Assembly: GCA_030430025.1 (NCBI GenBank)
Contig: JAUIGR010000016.1
Location: 1 to 56,434 of the forward strand
Source of the DNA: Gammaproteobacteria bacterium
GTDB lineage: Bacteria; Pseudomonadota; Gammaproteobacteria; Xanthomonadales; Marinicellaceae
Length of the DNA: 56,434 nt
Direction: 5' to 3'
Below the pieces are notes generated by a model that was not told the DNA's origin, did no database searches, and was given only the letters and a program-made list of their open reading frames with translations. Positions 41,293-45,808 of this stretch are shown here, piece by piece. Made by a program: the position numbers and the translations under genes. Position 1 is the stretch's first letter. Each line of letters opens with the position of its first letter.

Positions 41293-42501
41293 ATGACAAA
41301 TGATAAACATGTTGTAGATATTGCAGGTATTCTAGTAGGTGCTGGAGACGTGGTGGTACAGTCAATGACTAACACAGACACGGCTGATGCCAAAGCCACT
41401 GCCCAACAAATTTATGAATTATATCAAGCAGGTTCTCAATTGGTTCGTATTACGGTCAATAATGAAGAGTCTGCAGCAGCTGTTCCTGAGATTATTGATA
41501 GACTAAGGGCATCCCATTGTGAAGTGCCAGTGATTGGTGATTTCCATTACAACGGACATCGCTTGTTACAAGACTATCCTGAATGTGCTGAGAAATTGGC
41601 TAAATACCGGATTAATCCAGGGAATGTCGGTTTTGGGCGAAAACGTGACAGTCAGTTCGAGCAAATTATTGAAATTGCTAAGGACTTAAATAAGCCTGTG
41701 AGAATAGGGGGCAACTGGGGTAGTCTCGATCAAAAGTTGATGGCTAAAATGATGGATGAAAATGCCCAGAGTATTCAGCCCTTATCTTCAGGTGAGCTGA
41801 TAGAAAAAGCTCTGATTGAATCAGTGCTTCAAAGTGCTGCTCAGGCGAAAGCCTTTGGCTTGCCTGCTGATCGTATCATTGTTTCATGTAAGGTCAGTGG
41901 TGTTCAGTCATTGATTAGAATCTATCAGCAGTTAGACCAGTTATGTCGATATCCATTGCATTTAGGTTTGACTGAGGCCGGTATGGGAAACAAAGGGGTG
42001 ATCGCATCGACAGCCGCGCTTTCTGTTCTATTACAGCAAGGTATTGGTGATACCATTCGTGTTTCTCTGACTCCTCAACCGAACCAGTCGCGAACTGAAG
42101 AAGTTAAAGTGGCACAACAAATTCTTCAAAGTTTAGAACGCCAATCATTCAAACCTGAAGTCACTGCTTGTCCAGGTTGTGGACGAACGACCAGTATCTT
42201 TTTCCAAGAATTGGCTCAACAAATTACTGAACACATGGAGAGAAAAATGCCTGAGTGGCGAGTCACTCACCCAGGTGTCAAAGACATGAATGTTGCAGTG
42301 ATGGGGTGTATCGTTAATGGTCCGGGGGAATCTAAGTTTGCTGACATCGGTATCTCTTTACCTGGTACTGGAGAGGAACCATCAGCCCCCGTTTTTATCA
42401 AAGGTAAAAAAACATACACTTTAAAAGGTGAAGGAATCTCCCATCAATTTATACAAATTTTAAATGAGTTTGTTGATGGTGAATATGGTGCTGATGCTTA
42501 A
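41293..42501 (+). CDS. ispG: 4-hydroxy-3-methylbut-2-enyl diphosphate synthase (flavodoxin/ferredoxin)
   Basis: A 402-residue [4Fe-4S] enzyme of the MEP isoprenoid pathway. The N-terminal TIM barrel starts [14 protein letters not shown]; Fe-S ligands are in [11 protein letters not shown] near residue 293 and the [12 protein letters not shown] motif near 337, with the conserved glutamate in GPGES. It starts 2 bp after the YgfX-like gene. Its stop is only 32 bp from the left end of the IS1595-type element, which therefore separates it from any former downstream neighbour. Confidence 0.97.
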
Positions 42502-42525
42502 TAAACTTTTTAAAATGGCAGATAA

Positions 42526-42533
42526 TTTTTTTA
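42526..42533. repeat. Target-site duplication, left copy
   Basis: TTTTTTTA directly before the left end of the IS1595-type element; the same eight bases follow its right end at 45027-45034. An 8-bp duplication is the size known for the IS1595 family. Confidence 0.88.
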
Positions 42534-42555
42534 CGGAATGTCCCATTAATTGGTT
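42534..42555 (+). repeat. Left terminal inverted repeat of the IS1595-type element
   Basis: CGGAATGTCCCAT, then TAATTGGTT; paired with the right end at 45005-45026 with one mismatch. Confidence 0.92.
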
Positions 42556-42658
42556 ATGCGTGTATTCTTAATTTATTCTCGTTATTTACTTCGTCTGCTA
42601 TTTCAATTACTATATTCATGATGTCTTGGTCCTTGAATAGACCATTACATTAGATATC

Positions 42659-42791
42659 AATACAGGAAACCTACTATGTCGGGTGTCCTACGAATACAAC
42701 ACCCATCGTGGAAATAAGTAGGGTGTGCTTTCCTGTATTGACACATATTCAAACACCTGACACCCTTTGGGTGGAAGGATCTAATACAGGA
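42659..42791 (+). promoter_or_regulatory. Structured leader with alternative pairing around a ribosome-binding site
   Basis: AATACAGGAAA (42659-42669) pairs perfectly with TTTCCTGTATT (42729-42739). Inside that stem CCTACT (42670-42675) pairs with AGTAGG (42717-42722), and GGGTGT (42681-42686) with ACACCC (42699-42704), giving a long branched hairpin. A second small hairpin, CACCC-TTT-GGGTG, is at 42761-42773. A third copy of the motif, AATACAGGA (42783-42791), contains the ribosome-binding site AGGA of the 84-residue gene. It is complementary over 9 bases to the same TCCTGTATT. The strand could thus pair upstream (site free) or downstream (site hidden). Protein-binding repeats in DNA are the other explanation. 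Confidence 0.55.
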
Positions 42792-42798
42792 TATAATT

Positions 42799-43053
42799 AT
42801 GGAAACTAATACTAATAAGTCCAATGTATACCATTATATTGGATACTTCGTTCTTGGCTACATTCAATACAATTTCGTACGAAGAGGTCTCAATATCAAT
42901 ATTGCTGAATCTATAGGTGGTGCATTATGGCCTTTAATATTGGGTGTAATAGCTACTAACCTCAACTCTAAAAAGAATCCATTAGTTGGTTGGATAGTTT
43001 GTTTGAGTGTTTCTGCATTGGCTATCATTGGATATTACGAGCCATATTCTTAA
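42799..43053 (+). CDS. Small membrane protein, IS passenger
   Basis: An 84-residue protein with a hydrophilic N-terminus and hydrophobic segments near residues 12-25, 36-51 and 61-79, the last two being likely membrane helices. I do not recognise a family. AGGA ribosome-binding site 7 bases before the ATG, buried in the repeat-rich leader. A strong terminator follows 46 bp after the stop, so it is an independent unit with its own regulation inside the IS1595-type element. Possibilities such as immunity, toxin or defence are unsupported guesses. Confidence 0.75.
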   Translation: METNTNKSNVYHYIGYFVLGYIQYNFVRRGLNINIAESIGGALWPLILGVIATNLNSKKNPLVGWIVCLSVSALAIIGYYEPYS

Positions 43054-43098
43054 ATATTGACCACACTTTCTAAGAATCATGGTTTAAGTTTGTAGTTA

Positions 43099-43130
43099 GA
43101 GGCAGTCTCCAATAAGACAGCCTCATTTTT
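43099..43130 (+). terminator. Terminator of the 84-residue passenger gene
   Basis: GAGGC (43099-43103) plus GTCT (43105-43108) pair with AGAC (43115-43118) plus GCCTC (43120-43124), with one A-A mismatch and a 6-base loop, followed by ATTTTT. Confidence 0.85.
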
Positions 43131-43132
43131 AT

Positions 43133-43249
43133 TTACCCTTTTGGATAAGCTCGACAGTGAGATCGCACAAACTCGAAACGCCCAAAGCGATAACGAATGT
43201 AAGCAATCACACTAACGGGCTTGGGGTAGGAACAACTGCGTTTAAGCAT
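43133..43249 (-). CDS. 38-residue basic protein, IS passenger
   Basis: A short gene with a strong ribosome-binding site (AAGGAG, 9 bases before the ATG) and a good promoter (43302-43329). The product starts MLKRSCSYPKPVSVIAYIR and continues with arginine- and aromatic-rich residues and two cysteines (C6 and C32) to the end at PKG. I recall similar short PKPVSV-AYIRYRFGR proteins in other gammaproteobacteria but cannot name a family or function. It is convergent with the 84-residue gene, their ends being 79 bp apart with a terminator between. Its reality is supported by the expression signals. Confidence 0.65.
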   Translation of the reverse strand: MLKRSCSYPKPVSVIAYIRYRFGRFEFVRSHCRAYPKG

Positions 43250-43301
43250 ATTGCTATTCTCCTTGCACGTAATGCAAAAGAGGCACTTGTAATCAATCTG
43301 T

Positions 43302-43329
43302 GTTATACTTAGGCTGAGTTCACAGTCAA
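43302..43329 (-). promoter_or_regulatory. Sigma70 promoter for the 38-residue gene
   Basis: On the minus strand TTGACT (43329-43324), a 16-bp spacer and TATAAC (43307-43302). It would give a leader of about 45 nt before the ATG at 43249. Confidence 0.6.
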
Positions 43330-43376
43330 AGCAAGCAGATATGGCAGTATCGTACCTGTTTATTTGGCTACTACTT

Positions 43377-43406
43377 AAAGGCGGTTGTCACATCAACCGC
43401 CTTTTT
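43377..43406. terminator. Strong hairpin terminator, probably bidirectional
   Basis: Perfect 11-bp arms at 43377-43387 and 43394-43404 around a 6-base loop. Five T follow on the plus strand; three T on the minus strand, where it sits 16 bp after the end of the 173-residue gene. It isolates that gene from the 38-residue gene. Confidence 0.85.
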
Positions 43407-43422
43407 AATTACGCCTCATTCT

Positions 43423-43944
43423 TTAATTTTCCTTAACTATTGCATACCTCCTGTGACGTGTCTGTTGGGGATTGATACACATAATATAATTTGAACCAAT
43501 TAAGTCTTTAATGATATGACCAATAGTATTTGGTGACACCCTTATGTCAGGGTCTGAGTTAATTAAATAGTCTCGAATTTCACCCACCATAAATCCTTTG
43601 TTGCCGTATACGTCATTTTTTGAGAGTGCGACAAGTGCTTCTTTAACTTGTTCAGTTAATTGCTCTCTTTGCTGCTGGCGTTTATTTTTTTTAGGTGTGT
43701 AAGGTACGTTATTTGAAGTATCTGTATGATTTACTTCTTTGAGTTCAACGCTTGACAATTGTGATTGATAAAATTCCTTGGTTTTTAGTGCCAAACTTAG
43801 TTTTGCGCTTTCCCTTGCTATGATTGACTCACAGTCATCAATAATTTCTTGTTGCTCTGCAAGATGCTCTTGAATAATTTCTTGTTGATATTTATCGCTT
43901 TTTTTGTTATCCTTTGACAAGGATTTGATGTCTTCAGTGTTCAC
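43423..43944 (-). CDS. Coiled-coil plus winged-helix-like protein, IS passenger
   Basis: A 173-residue protein. Residues 15-70 are a charged coiled coil (DKYQQEIIQEHLAEQQEIIDD). A basic linker follows (KKNKRQQQREQ), then a C-terminal region (about 115-170) with GFMVGEIRDYLI ... RVSPNTIGHIIKDLI ... RRYAIV, which resembles a winged helix-turn-helix. GTG start with AGGAG 10 bases upstream. It is likely a DNA-binding protein, perhaps regulating the element or helping transposition; this is inferred from fold-like patterns only. It is divergent neither from the transposase nor overlapping it; both are on the minus strand, 131 bp apart. Confidence 0.75.
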   Translation of the reverse strand: MNTEDIKSLSKDNKKSDKYQQEIIQEHLAEQQEIIDDCESIIARESAKLSLALKTKEFYQSQLSSVELKEVNHTDTSNNVPYTPKKNKRQQQREQLTEQVKEALVALSKNDVYGNKGFMVGEIRDYLINSDPDIRVSPNTIGHIIKDLIGSNYIMCINPQQTRHRRYAIVKEN

Positions 43945-44075
43945 TGTTTTCCATCTCCTATATGTAAATTATTAGGTTAGCGCATATGTCTTGCTAGGAG
44001 GTATGCGCTAATTCACTACAGATTTTACAACATCATAAAAGACATTGCAATATCTGATCTTACAAAATCTCCAAT

Positions 44076-44951
44076 TTATATCATATTTATTAGCATTTCA
44101 TTAAACACACACTCCGAGCATTCTTTCCTCCTGTTGTATCTATAACAAAATTCATCCATATACCTGTCAAGGTAACGAACGCTAACTTTGTGAAATTGAC
44201 CCACGATACCCCTTTTAACTAATGACCAGAATGATTCAATTGTATTGGTGTGAATTTCGCCGTTAGCATACTCATAAGAATGATTAATGGTGTAATGTTT
44301 CAAAATCGATGATACTTTCCTATAACCGCGGTACTCATCAGTGACTAAAACAGAGCCATTAGGATCGACATTCTTTCTGATTAATTCATTTAGATCTTTT
44401 GATTTTAGTGATTGTTTATCAACCTTCTGTGCTTTCACGTTTCCTTTTCGTTCTACCATACCCACAACTGGAGTTTTTTTAGTTCCACGACCTCGTGGGT
44501 TGCCTTTATCATCATCATTGTTCTTCTTGACTTTACGAGGCTTGCCACCAACATAAGTTTCATCCATTTCAACAATTCCCTGTAGTAATTCACCATCATC
44601 TTTCATGGCTTCACGTATTTTCATAGCCATACGCCATGCAGTATCTTTGTTTACTTCAAGGTCACGACCTAATTGACGTGCAGAGATACCTTTTTTAGCA
44701 TTGATGATTAATGACATGGCAAGAAACCACTTCTGAATAGGGATACGTGTATCGTGAAAGATGGTACCAATGGTAACAGAGAAAGACTTTTTACAAGAAT
44801 TACAGTGATGCCGTTTCTCTTTGGGCATTGGATATGTATTATCACTACCACAATAAGCACATTTGACACCATCAGACCAGCGGACAGACTCAAGATGATC
44901 AATACATGATTCTTGAGTTGGGAATTTTTGAAAGATTTTGATGATGTTCAT
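44076..44951 (-). CDS. IS1595-family (ISXO2-like) transposase
   Basis: A 291-residue transposase. An N-terminal zinc ribbon (CAYCGSD and HHCNSCKKSF) is followed by a helix-turn-helix region (GISARQLGRDLEVNKDTAWRMA). The ISXO2-like catalytic domain comes next, with acidic residues in VEMDETYVGGK, LVTDEYRGY and NTIESFWSLVK. The length and motifs are complete, with no frameshift, so it is probably active. It starts 54 bp from the right inverted repeat. Confidence 0.95.
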   Translation of the reverse strand: MNIIKIFQKFPTQESCIDHLESVRWSDGVKCAYCGSDNTYPMPKEKRHHCNSCKKSFSVTIGTIFHDTRIPIQKWFLAMSLIINAKKGISARQLGRDLEVNKDTAWRMAMKIREAMKDDGELLQGIVEMDETYVGGKPRKVKKNNDDDKGNPRGRGTKKTPVVGMVERKGNVKAQKVDKQSLKSKDLNELIRKNVDPNGSVLVTDEYRGYRKVSSILKHYTINHSYEYANGEIHTNTIESFWSLVKRGIVGQFHKVSVRYLDRYMDEFCYRYNRRKECSECVFNEMLINMI

Positions 44952-45004
44952 AACGGTTTCTCACTATTTATATGAACATTATAATGGATTAGATTACATG
45001 ATGC

Positions 45005-45026
45005 AACCAATTACTGGGACATTCCG
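45005..45026 (-). repeat. Right terminal inverted repeat of the IS1595-type element
   Basis: Minus-strand CGGAATGTCCCAG, then TAATTGGTT; partner of 42534-42555. Confidence 0.92.
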
Positions 45027-45034
45027 TTTTTTTA
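45027..45034. repeat. Target-site duplication, right copy
   Basis: TTTTTTTA, identical to 42526-42533. Confidence 0.88.
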
Positions 45035-45051
45035 TACTGGGGTGGATTAGT

Positions 45052-45097
45052 TAGTAGAACCTGAAAAATGGCAGGATGGACTTTTTCAGGGTTGACT
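45052..45097 (+). repeat. Family-1 interspersed repeat, minimal 46-bp copy
   Basis: TAGTAGAACCTGAAAAA is followed by a 12-base loop (TGGCAGGATGGA) and CTTTTTCAGGGTTGACT. It is just the two family ends joined, forming one hairpin of about 9 pairs. It lies between the IS1595-type element and the 3' end of the HD hydrolase gene. Confidence 0.75.
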
Positions 45098-45193
45098 GAT
45101 TAAGGGTTAAAATATCCTCAAAGCATATACGCTAAATGTGCAGTGAACAGTCAATATTCAAACCTGATTTTCCAGAATAATTCATCGATATTT

Positions 45194-45808
45194 TTAGTAA
45201 GAAAGAGTAAAGATAGCATCATTGATATTTTTTCTGGCTTGAGATTCAAATTGATTAAAAAAGACCTCATGATGATAGATCCTGTCTTTATTTAAAAAAT
45301 TTGTAAGTACTTCTTTTCTTTTTTTACGATATATGAAGCTAGGTATCCACTTGTATTCTTTTCTTATGTCTTTTTCGAATTGTCGATAGGTGGCTTCGTT
45401 ACTGCCTAAAATTGTAAGATCTATATCAATAATTAAATACTGATCTTGGTTAGATGGTTTGGTTGTGTGTAATGTTGCTAAAATCAGTTCCGTTATATTG
45501 TTGATGGTTTTTGAATCAGCGTCATTTTTTGTTAAAAAATCAGCGGCCCATTGTGCACTGTTAGTTTCATTTGATGACGAGTATGGATTGTATATGGCAT
45601 CATGGAACCATAAGGCAACTTCAACATTGGTAGGGTTTTGTGAAATCGACAGGCATGAATCTAAATGCATAAGAACAGCATTTAGATGTTTCAGGTTGTG
45701 ATAATGTCTATGTTTTTCTGAGTAAGCTTTGATCAATGCGTTATATGTTGTTTCATTTGAATGAAAACCCATACGATTCATGAGGATGTGCCATCTGTCT
45801 TTATTCAT
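45194..45808 (-). CDS. HD-superfamily metal-dependent phosphohydrolase (COG4339 type)
   Basis: A 204-residue protein with the HD pattern HYHNLKHL near residue 36, VALWFHDAIYNP near 64, and a later ILATLHTTK and DIDLTILG, which together give the metal ligands of this group. The family is predicted to hydrolyse phosphate esters; its substrate is unknown. It is upstream of nothing on its strand but follows the M28 peptidase gene by 45 bp, so both may share a transcript. That 45-bp gap contains a relic of a family-2 MITE end. Confidence 0.85.
   Translation of the reverse strand: MNKDRWHILMNRMGFHSNETTYNALIKAYSEKHRHYHNLKHLNAVLMHLDSCLSISQNPTNVEVALWFHDAIYNPYSSSNETNSAQWAADFLTKNDADSKTINNITELILATLHTTKPSNQDQYLIIDIDLTILGSNEATYRQFEKDIRKEYKWIPSFIYRKKRKEVLTNFLNKDRIYHHEVFFNQFESQARKNINDAIFTLSY

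Follow-up and report, generated by a model that had tools for sequence, protein, structure and literature searches.

Several small RNAs (sRNAs) of phages and bacteria bear on the locus described here. C4 RNA regulates the antirepressor of phage P1 (PMC8201110). The CI RNA of satellite phage P4 is described as having complementary sites on both sides, and the same source describes a stable RNA that is likely processed from a read-through transcript downstream of IsrK (PMC4825925). sRNA-Xcc1 was cloned from Xanthomonas campestris, where it gives a band of ~100 nucleotides (nt) and was end-mapped to 88 nt (PMC2996969); it is referred to as linked to virulence in Xanthomonas and Xylella, and its targets have been sought by genome-wide prediction (PMC2996969, PMC12189769). 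Together with symE, it is described as the most widespread integron cassette of Xanthomonas, its place before symE being left open in the available text of that report (PMC12444791). A single table lists both C4 and sRNA-Xcc1, and a stretch of 400 bp in one Xylella genome contains C4, isrK, and sRNA-Xcc1 (PMC12189769); among the papers that our searches found to mention sRNA-Xcc1, this was the only one in which C4 antisense RNA is named too. We analyzed a contig of 56,434 nt from a gammaproteobacterium of the Marinicellaceae (JAUIGR010000016.1 of assembly GCA_030430025.1; this whole stretch is the window), in which an IS1595-family element of 2493 bp occupies positions 42534 to 45026. A sequence-only reading of this DNA had given the element three unrelated cargo genes. 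Open reading frames (ORFs) of 84, 38, and 173 amino acids (aa) are indeed present, but that reading overlooked a structured RNA in the left arm, together with the sites predicted to pair with it; we regard these as central to understanding the cargo. Judging from the sequence, we think it likely that this RNA is an antisense switch of the C4 type that silences the adjacent 84-aa gene by pairing with its ribosome-binding site.

No ORF longer than 55 aa is present in the 265 bp that separate the 84-aa gene from the left end of the element. In this interval, positions 42678 to 42769 match the whole of the Rfam sRNA-Xcc1 model (RF02221; model positions 1 to 87 covered) with a score of 42.2 bits and an E value of 2e-5. 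The structured RNA itself spans 42678 to 42766 on the plus strand and comprises helices P1 (9 bp), P2 (5 bp), and P3 (5 bp), in which all 19 pairs are standard when G-T is counted (9/9, 5/5, and 5/5), and it retains the conserved sRNA-Xcc1 internal loop, here GAAUACAA / GGAAAUAA. Folded alone, the RNA is predicted to take the family shape at -25.3 kcal/mol (z score of -2.44), and 1 of 200 shuffles did as well. Since its score lies below Rfam's curated cutoff of 53 bits, we call it a divergent relative, and not a member, of sRNA-Xcc1.

The sites around this RNA, all on the plus strand, can be described with the names used for C4 (a', b', a1, b1, a2, and b2), of which the Rfam c4-a1b1 entry supports a1 and b1. 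Upstream, a small hairpin (GGTC-CTTGAATA-GACC, 42628 to 42643) displays in its loop a b1-like TTGAATA (42633 to 42639) and is followed by an a1-like site (TCAATACAGGAAA, 42657 to 42669). Within the RNA, the a'-like antisense loop of hairpin 2 (TTTCCTGTATTGA, 42729 to 42741) is the exact complement of the a1-like site over 13 nt, and the b'-like linker TATTCAA (42746 to 42752) complements the b1-like site over 7 nt. Part of the upstream match, AATACAGGA, recurs downstream of the RNA at 42783 to 42791; this a2-like site is complementary to the loop over 9 nt. The 84-aa gene (42799 to 43053, plus strand, with its ATG at 42799), whose ribosome-binding site lies within the a2-like site, is the predicted target. 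Computed duplexes had energies of -22.9 kcal/mol for a1:a', -13.9 kcal/mol for a2:a', and -9.0 kcal/mol for b1:b'. In predicted folds, the full leader pairs a1 with a', and a transcript without a1 pairs a2 with a'. These two folds are mutually exclusive within one transcript, as would be expected of a purely cis-acting RNA that switches the fold of its own mRNA leader and is never present as free antisense RNA. We regard that arrangement as unlikely, given that sRNA-Xcc1 is a discrete RNA in X. campestris (~100-nt band, 88 nt mapped; PMC2996969) and that, by eye, a terminator-like hairpin lies between the upstream site and the RNA in many relatives.

Complements of these lengths are not readily obtained by chance. 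When the flanks were combined with 99 other loops, or the loop with 99 other flanks, no combination equaled the observed pair in length. Of 20,000 first-order shuffles of the flanks, the upstream length was reached by 3, the downstream length by 54, and the shared 9-nt word by none. For the duplex energy upstream, 1 of the 99 other loops and none of the 99 other flanks were equally strong. The region from 42400 to 45200 does hold seven inverted repeats of at least 12 nt, the element ends included, and the complementary sites might on that account have arisen incidentally, through short inverted duplications in an AT-rich sequence. This explanation is strongly disfavored, and we consider it very improbable: lengths such as those observed occur rarely or not at all when flanks are shuffled or partners exchanged, and other loci show matches at the same positions.

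The recurrence at other loci was assessed across the family. A search with RF02221 gave matches in 24 of 200 related genomes and in 26 of 369 genomes of the class, the genome carrying the element being in both sets. All listed places were taken, giving 118 sRNA-Xcc1 loci with 100 distinct loops in 49 genomes. The pairing test used 100 loci (the 118 minus 1 with a short flank and 17 with repeated loops), and the ribosome-binding-site test used 98 (without 4 loci lacking a start codon and 16 with repeated loops); the windows were 150 nt upstream, 75 nt downstream, and, for the ribosome-binding site, the 24 nt immediately preceding the start codon. The longest complement to the loop averaged 7.95 nt in the own upstream flank versus 5.89 nt at other loci and 5.99 nt in the own downstream flank versus 5.24 nt at other loci, with neither value reached in 10,000 permutations. 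When partners were swapped within genomes only (72 loci), the upstream value was again never reached and the downstream value was reached in 18 of 10,000 permutations. Complements of at least 6 nt fell in the ribosome-binding window at 35 of the 98 loci, compared to 9.1% of other pairs (0 of 10,000 permutations, also within genomes). A word of at least 6 nt common to the upstream flank and the ribosome-binding site was found at 29 of the 98 loci, where 3.3 were expected and the maximum in 10,000 permutations was 11; words of at least 7 nt common to both flanks were found at 22 of the 98, where 0.4 were expected. The 9-nt word at the element locus is the longest of all 98. A smaller first test, with 59 loci and 55 distinct loops, gave the same result.

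From this pattern, it seems fairly probable that the variable loop, the upstream decoy, and the ribosome-binding site of the neighboring gene change together and that sRNA-Xcc1 is the core of a widespread C4-like antisense switch that can be retargeted and has been adapted to phage antirepressors, SymE toxins, XAC0095 proteins, and, at this locus, IS1595 cargo. In our literature searches, and for these searches only, no title or beginning of an abstract among those listed named pairing of this sort for sRNA-Xcc1. Single genomes carry up to 11 sRNA-Xcc1 copies with differing loops, and a small gene lies behind nearly each of them (loci L004 to L033, L063 to L091, and L130 to L188). By eye, GTTAGGC-like sequences upstream of the RNA (L004, L005, L020, L028, L063, and L088) suggest integron attC sites, and a recombinase-like ORF lies behind the SymE gene of L005.

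The genes behind the relatives of this RNA were compared as well. Among viral contigs, 24 fit two core patterns and 21 were scanned, L209 to L211, three look-alikes of scanned contigs, being left out; RF02221 matched at an E value of up to 0.01 in 13 of these 21 and was without a match in 8. In 9 of the 13 phage contigs, an antirepressor-type gene (ORF6N, Bro-N, pRha, or P22_AR) lies behind the RNA: ORF6N in L189, Bro-N in L195, L196, and L212, Bro-N with P22_AR_C in L200 and L201, P22_AR_N in L208, and pRha in L197 and L206. The gene start in L200 lies ~140 nt off, and the frame scanned in L201 lacks the start of the domain. L199 has two called copies and, ~0.5 kb past them, a core-pattern site not called by the model, which is followed by a KilA-N gene; the downstream gene of L190 had no Pfam match, and L194 is near-identical to L190. 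The downstream genes of L191 and L194 are outside the Pfam scan, and L191, L194, and L199 are outside the viral pairing check. That check covered 10 of the 13 contigs, of which 9 had a start codon (by eye in L201), and 8 of these 9 showed a match of at least 7 nt before the start. Two sRNA-Xcc1 copies lie close together in L195 (1881 to 2215), L197 (9896 to 10100), L199 (1861 to 2189), and L191 (8931 to 9350). We compiled 86 downstream proteins, consisting of 4 from phages and 82 of the 108 listed bacterial proteins (the element's included; near-copies and truncated or doubtful proteins left out). They included 23 SymE, 20 XAC0095, 2 Bro-N, 1 KilA-N, and 1 ORF6N protein, SymE and XAC0095 together accounting for half of the set; the 84-aa protein matches none of these families.

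The element, the family resemblance and predicted fold of its RNA, the two complementarities, and their recurrence in the family are established, and they suggest how a C4-type switch could operate here. In a transcript still holding the upstream site, a1 would pair with the loop and the ribosome-binding site would be free. RNA freed from the upstream site, whether processed or separately started, would instead cover the ribosome-binding site and turn translation off. Cells in which the element has settled would thus keep the 84-aa gene off, and entry of the element into a cell lacking the RNA would bring a burst of its expression; the gene product is perhaps toxic or acts during establishment, and the RNA would be its brake.

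Several observations weigh against this proposal. Besides the RF02221 score, which falls short of the curated cutoff, no b2-like site was seen at the element locus, and the terminator hairpin found between the upstream site and the RNA in many relatives is, by eye, absent here. The duplex energy downstream is less distinctive than the length, with equally strong duplexes formed by 11 of the 99 other loops and by 5 of the 99 other flanks. On the plus strand, a promoter scan listed no promoter-like site in the stretch from the left end to the RNA; the nearest one is just outside the element, at 42498 to 42526. The C4 model had no match at an E value of up to 5 in 42400 to 45200, nor at an E value of up to 1 at locus L024. 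The 84-aa protein had no homologue in our searches with which to judge its own conservation. Finally, 58 of the 98 loci are without a word of at least 5 nt common to the upstream and ribosome-binding flanks, so that some members of the family may act in a second way. Many of these 58 loci are, by eye, of the XAC0095 type; at such loci (L006 to L016 and similar ones), the upstream pairing and the terminator-like hairpin are kept and the variable match to the ribosome-binding site is lacking.

The identity of the 84-aa product bears on the purpose of such a switch. A search of 5.8 billion proteins returned, at the sensitivity used, only the protein itself out of 3 candidates. Its sole Pfam match was VIT1, with an E value of 0.21 and under the cutoff of that model, and neither NCBIfam nor PHROGs gave a match at an E value of up to 0.1. 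A structure model has three helices at low confidence (pLDDT of 65.6), and hydrophobic stretches are visible by eye; the product is likely a small membrane protein. A small, likely membrane-spanning product (on that low-confidence model) and the layout of the locus would also fit a type I toxin-antitoxin pair, with the RNA as the antitoxin and the module keeping the element by killing cells that lose it. The molecular mechanism would be the same as that of the C4-type switch, and the purpose would differ. Elsewhere, the commonest named neighbor of the RNA is SymE (23 of 86), a type I toxin according to Pfam. Toxicity of the 84-aa protein is no more than a possibility, and the XAC0095 and phage antirepressor-type genes at other loci are not known as such toxins, which counts against this assignment. 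We view the toxin-antitoxin pair as a possibility, and a somewhat doubtful one. A hydrophobic 31-aa ORF at 43341 to 43436 was also considered as a type I toxin and rejected: it had no counterpart in the same place and sense in the related G016 block, in which only a weak reverse-strand match (E value of 0.004) was found, and it had no PHROGs, NCBIfam, or PADLOC match at an E value of up to 0.1.

The RNA and its neighbor might also be passive cargo, that is, a decayed stretch resembling an integron cassette, without function, that was caught by an IS1595 element. A cassette origin is plausible because sRNA-Xcc1 with symE is described as the most widespread integron cassette of Xanthomonas (PMC12444791), and a score below the cutoff would suit decay. 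Nevertheless, all 19 helix pairs of the RNA are standard, its word common to both flanks is the longest of 98, and no attC-like site was seen by eye (no search with an attC model was made). We hold passive cargo to be quite improbable.

The remaining cargo genes lie on the minus strand. The sequence-only reading had found no nameable family for any of the three, which holds for the 84-aa and 173-aa proteins, neither of which had a relative in our searches, but not for the 38-aa microprotein (43133 to 43249), which belongs to PHROGs family phrog_21154 (E value of 1.6e-7), itself unnamed. This family matched in 109 plasmid records at an E value of up to 1, mainly plasmids of Xanthomonas, Enterobacter, and Klebsiella; among 20 plasmid records listed, 19 had no annotated gene there, in a table that is incomplete, and 1 had a hypothetical protein. 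At locus L127 of a congener, the 38-aa gene lies in a 263-bp block with 76% DNA identity, beside what appears by eye to be a tRNA gene, and the family also occurs at L058 (455 to 541), L107, and L108. The 173-aa gene (43423 to 43944) is predicted to encode a long N-terminal helix followed by a C-terminal winged-helix-like part (pLDDT of 73.4). Both this model and that of the 84-aa protein were made from single sequences and were too weak for a fold search. A protein search with the 173-aa sequence found only itself among 98 candidates, and the protein is present on two contigs in the protein database. Its weak similarity to phage Lpa-type activators (Pfam E value of 0.0082, below the cutoff; PHROGs E value of 0.094) is only a hint, and we did not adopt that assignment; other weak matches were to PADLOC NsnC (E value of 0.0094) and in NCBIfam (E value of 0.012).

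The cargo genes had further been credited with their own promoters and terminators. In favor of this, two hairpins with T runs fold well in prediction, one followed by its T run 3' of the 84-aa gene (43099 to 43124, plus strand) and an 11-bp one between the 38-aa and 173-aa genes (43377 to 43404), and the sequence TTGACT-16-TATAAC is visible by eye ahead of the 38-aa gene. The claim is borne out only in part: the terminator scan listed neither hairpin, and the promoter scan gave 10 sites against a shuffle mean of 13.7.

The element itself is a complete IS1595-family transposon of the ordinary kind; its RNA module is not ordinary. The transposase (291 aa; 44076 to 44951, minus strand) was identified with both Pfam (PF12762, 138.7 bits against a cutoff of 27; PF12760, 39.3 bits) and NCBIfam (IS1595 model NF033547, 225.8 bits against a cutoff of 75). 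An inverted repeat extends over 42533 to 42555 and 45005 to 45027 with 22 of 23 positions matching; its outermost pair belongs to the flank, and the element ends are thus 22-nt terminal inverted repeats (42534 to 42555 and 45005 to 45026) with one mismatch. An 8-bp target duplication is a trait of the IS1595 family, and TTTTTTTA is present on each side of the element (42526 to 42533 and 45027 to 45034), although a low-complexity repeat of this kind carries less weight than a mixed 8-mer would. The element thus combines a transposase domain above the curated cutoff with terminal inverted repeats and an 8-bp duplication. The transposase gene accounts for 35% of the element and other DNA for 65%. 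On these four points (a complete IS1595-type element with an intact transposase, 22-bp ends with one mismatch, a perfect 8-bp duplication, and two-thirds of the length outside the transposase), the sequence-only reading was borne out.

In the draft genome (114 contigs), whole-element DNA and transposase searches found a single copy of the element. The best long match to the transposase in the 200 related genomes had 44% identity, with a few matches of ~32 residues reaching 47 to 52%, and all 456 plasmid records matching the transposase were below 60% identity. A pattern search of a genome contig collection gave 32 stretches with no relative of the element among them, and the exact element ends had no match in that collection; with up to 3 mismatches allowed, the ends had 7 matches in 61 genomes beyond the element's own two, compared to 17 for a reversed control pattern. 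The sequence-only reading had named beforehand, as a finding that would refute it, the lack of any further copy sharing these ends and this cargo. This applies in part, since no such copy was found in the genome, the 200 relatives, the contig collection, or the 61 genomes; the spread of this exact cargo set is thus not shown. The element adjoins ispG. Of 18 genomes from the genus, 17, including the element's own, were found to carry this gene. In the 16 others, neither of the next two genes past the element was found within the 1.5 kb or less covered behind ispG, and an empty site could therefore not be shown, nor could the insertion, called apparently recent in the sequence-only reading, be dated.

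If the target is the next gene, the target of an sRNA-Xcc1 RNA could be read from its loop, and the open question of sRNA-Xcc1 targets could be answered by a reporter test. There would then be a rule predicting the targets of many family members from sequence alone, and a phage immunity device would have moved onto integrons and a transposon.

Members of the IS1595 family with passenger genes exist. The element shares with such insertion sequences its transposase, inverted ends, and 8-bp duplication and differs from them in a cargo set not seen elsewhere in the genomes and plasmid records searched and in a transposase whose best long match is 44% identical. With the C4 antisense RNA of phages P1 and P7 and of prophages (RF01695; c4-a1b1, RF03163; isrK, RF01394), the element's RNA has in common a closing helix, the loop a', the linker b', upstream sites in the order b1 (in a hairpin loop) and then a1, and a site at the downstream ribosome-binding site; moreover, its phage relatives precede antirepressor-type genes. 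It differs in having the sRNA-Xcc1 core with its AAUACAA internal loop, in lacking a terminator after a1 and any b2 seen, and in a target that is not an antirepressor. Measured by C4 pairing, the locus has both upstream matches (13 nt for a1 and 7 nt for b1) and, at the ribosome-binding site, a 9-nt a2 with no b2 seen. At 15 C4 loci from the same taxonomic order, an upstream complement of at least 7 nt was found in all 15, and a word of at least 6 nt shared with the downstream 75 nt was found in 9; three C4 loci that were scanned had c4-a1b1 and isrK matches upstream as well. The C4, c4-a1b1, and isrK models had no match at an E value of up to 1 at seven sRNA-Xcc1 loci, the element's included, and therefore common descent with C4 is not shown; the likeness of working is.

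The CI RNA of satellite phage P4 belongs to an arrangement seqA - seqB - seqC. Like the switch proposed here, P4 CI RNA is an antisense RNA processed from a leader, with one site upstream and one downstream (PMC4825925). It is likened by description only and is described as acting by premature transcription termination (PMC4825925), whereas the downstream site here covers a ribosome-binding site. With sRNA-Xcc1 (RF02221), the element's RNA shares the core fold and motif and the place ahead of a small gene. IS1595 as the usual carrier of sRNA-Xcc1 was considered and is not supported, since no transposase relative (E value of up to 0.01) lay within 1.5 kb at 58 other loci; the check covered these 58, and 59 later loci with flanks of 400 bases only were left out. 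Compared to its relatives, the RNA described here stands out by its score of 42.2 bits, its hairpin 2 loop of 14 nt, its new kind of target gene, and its IS1595 carrier.

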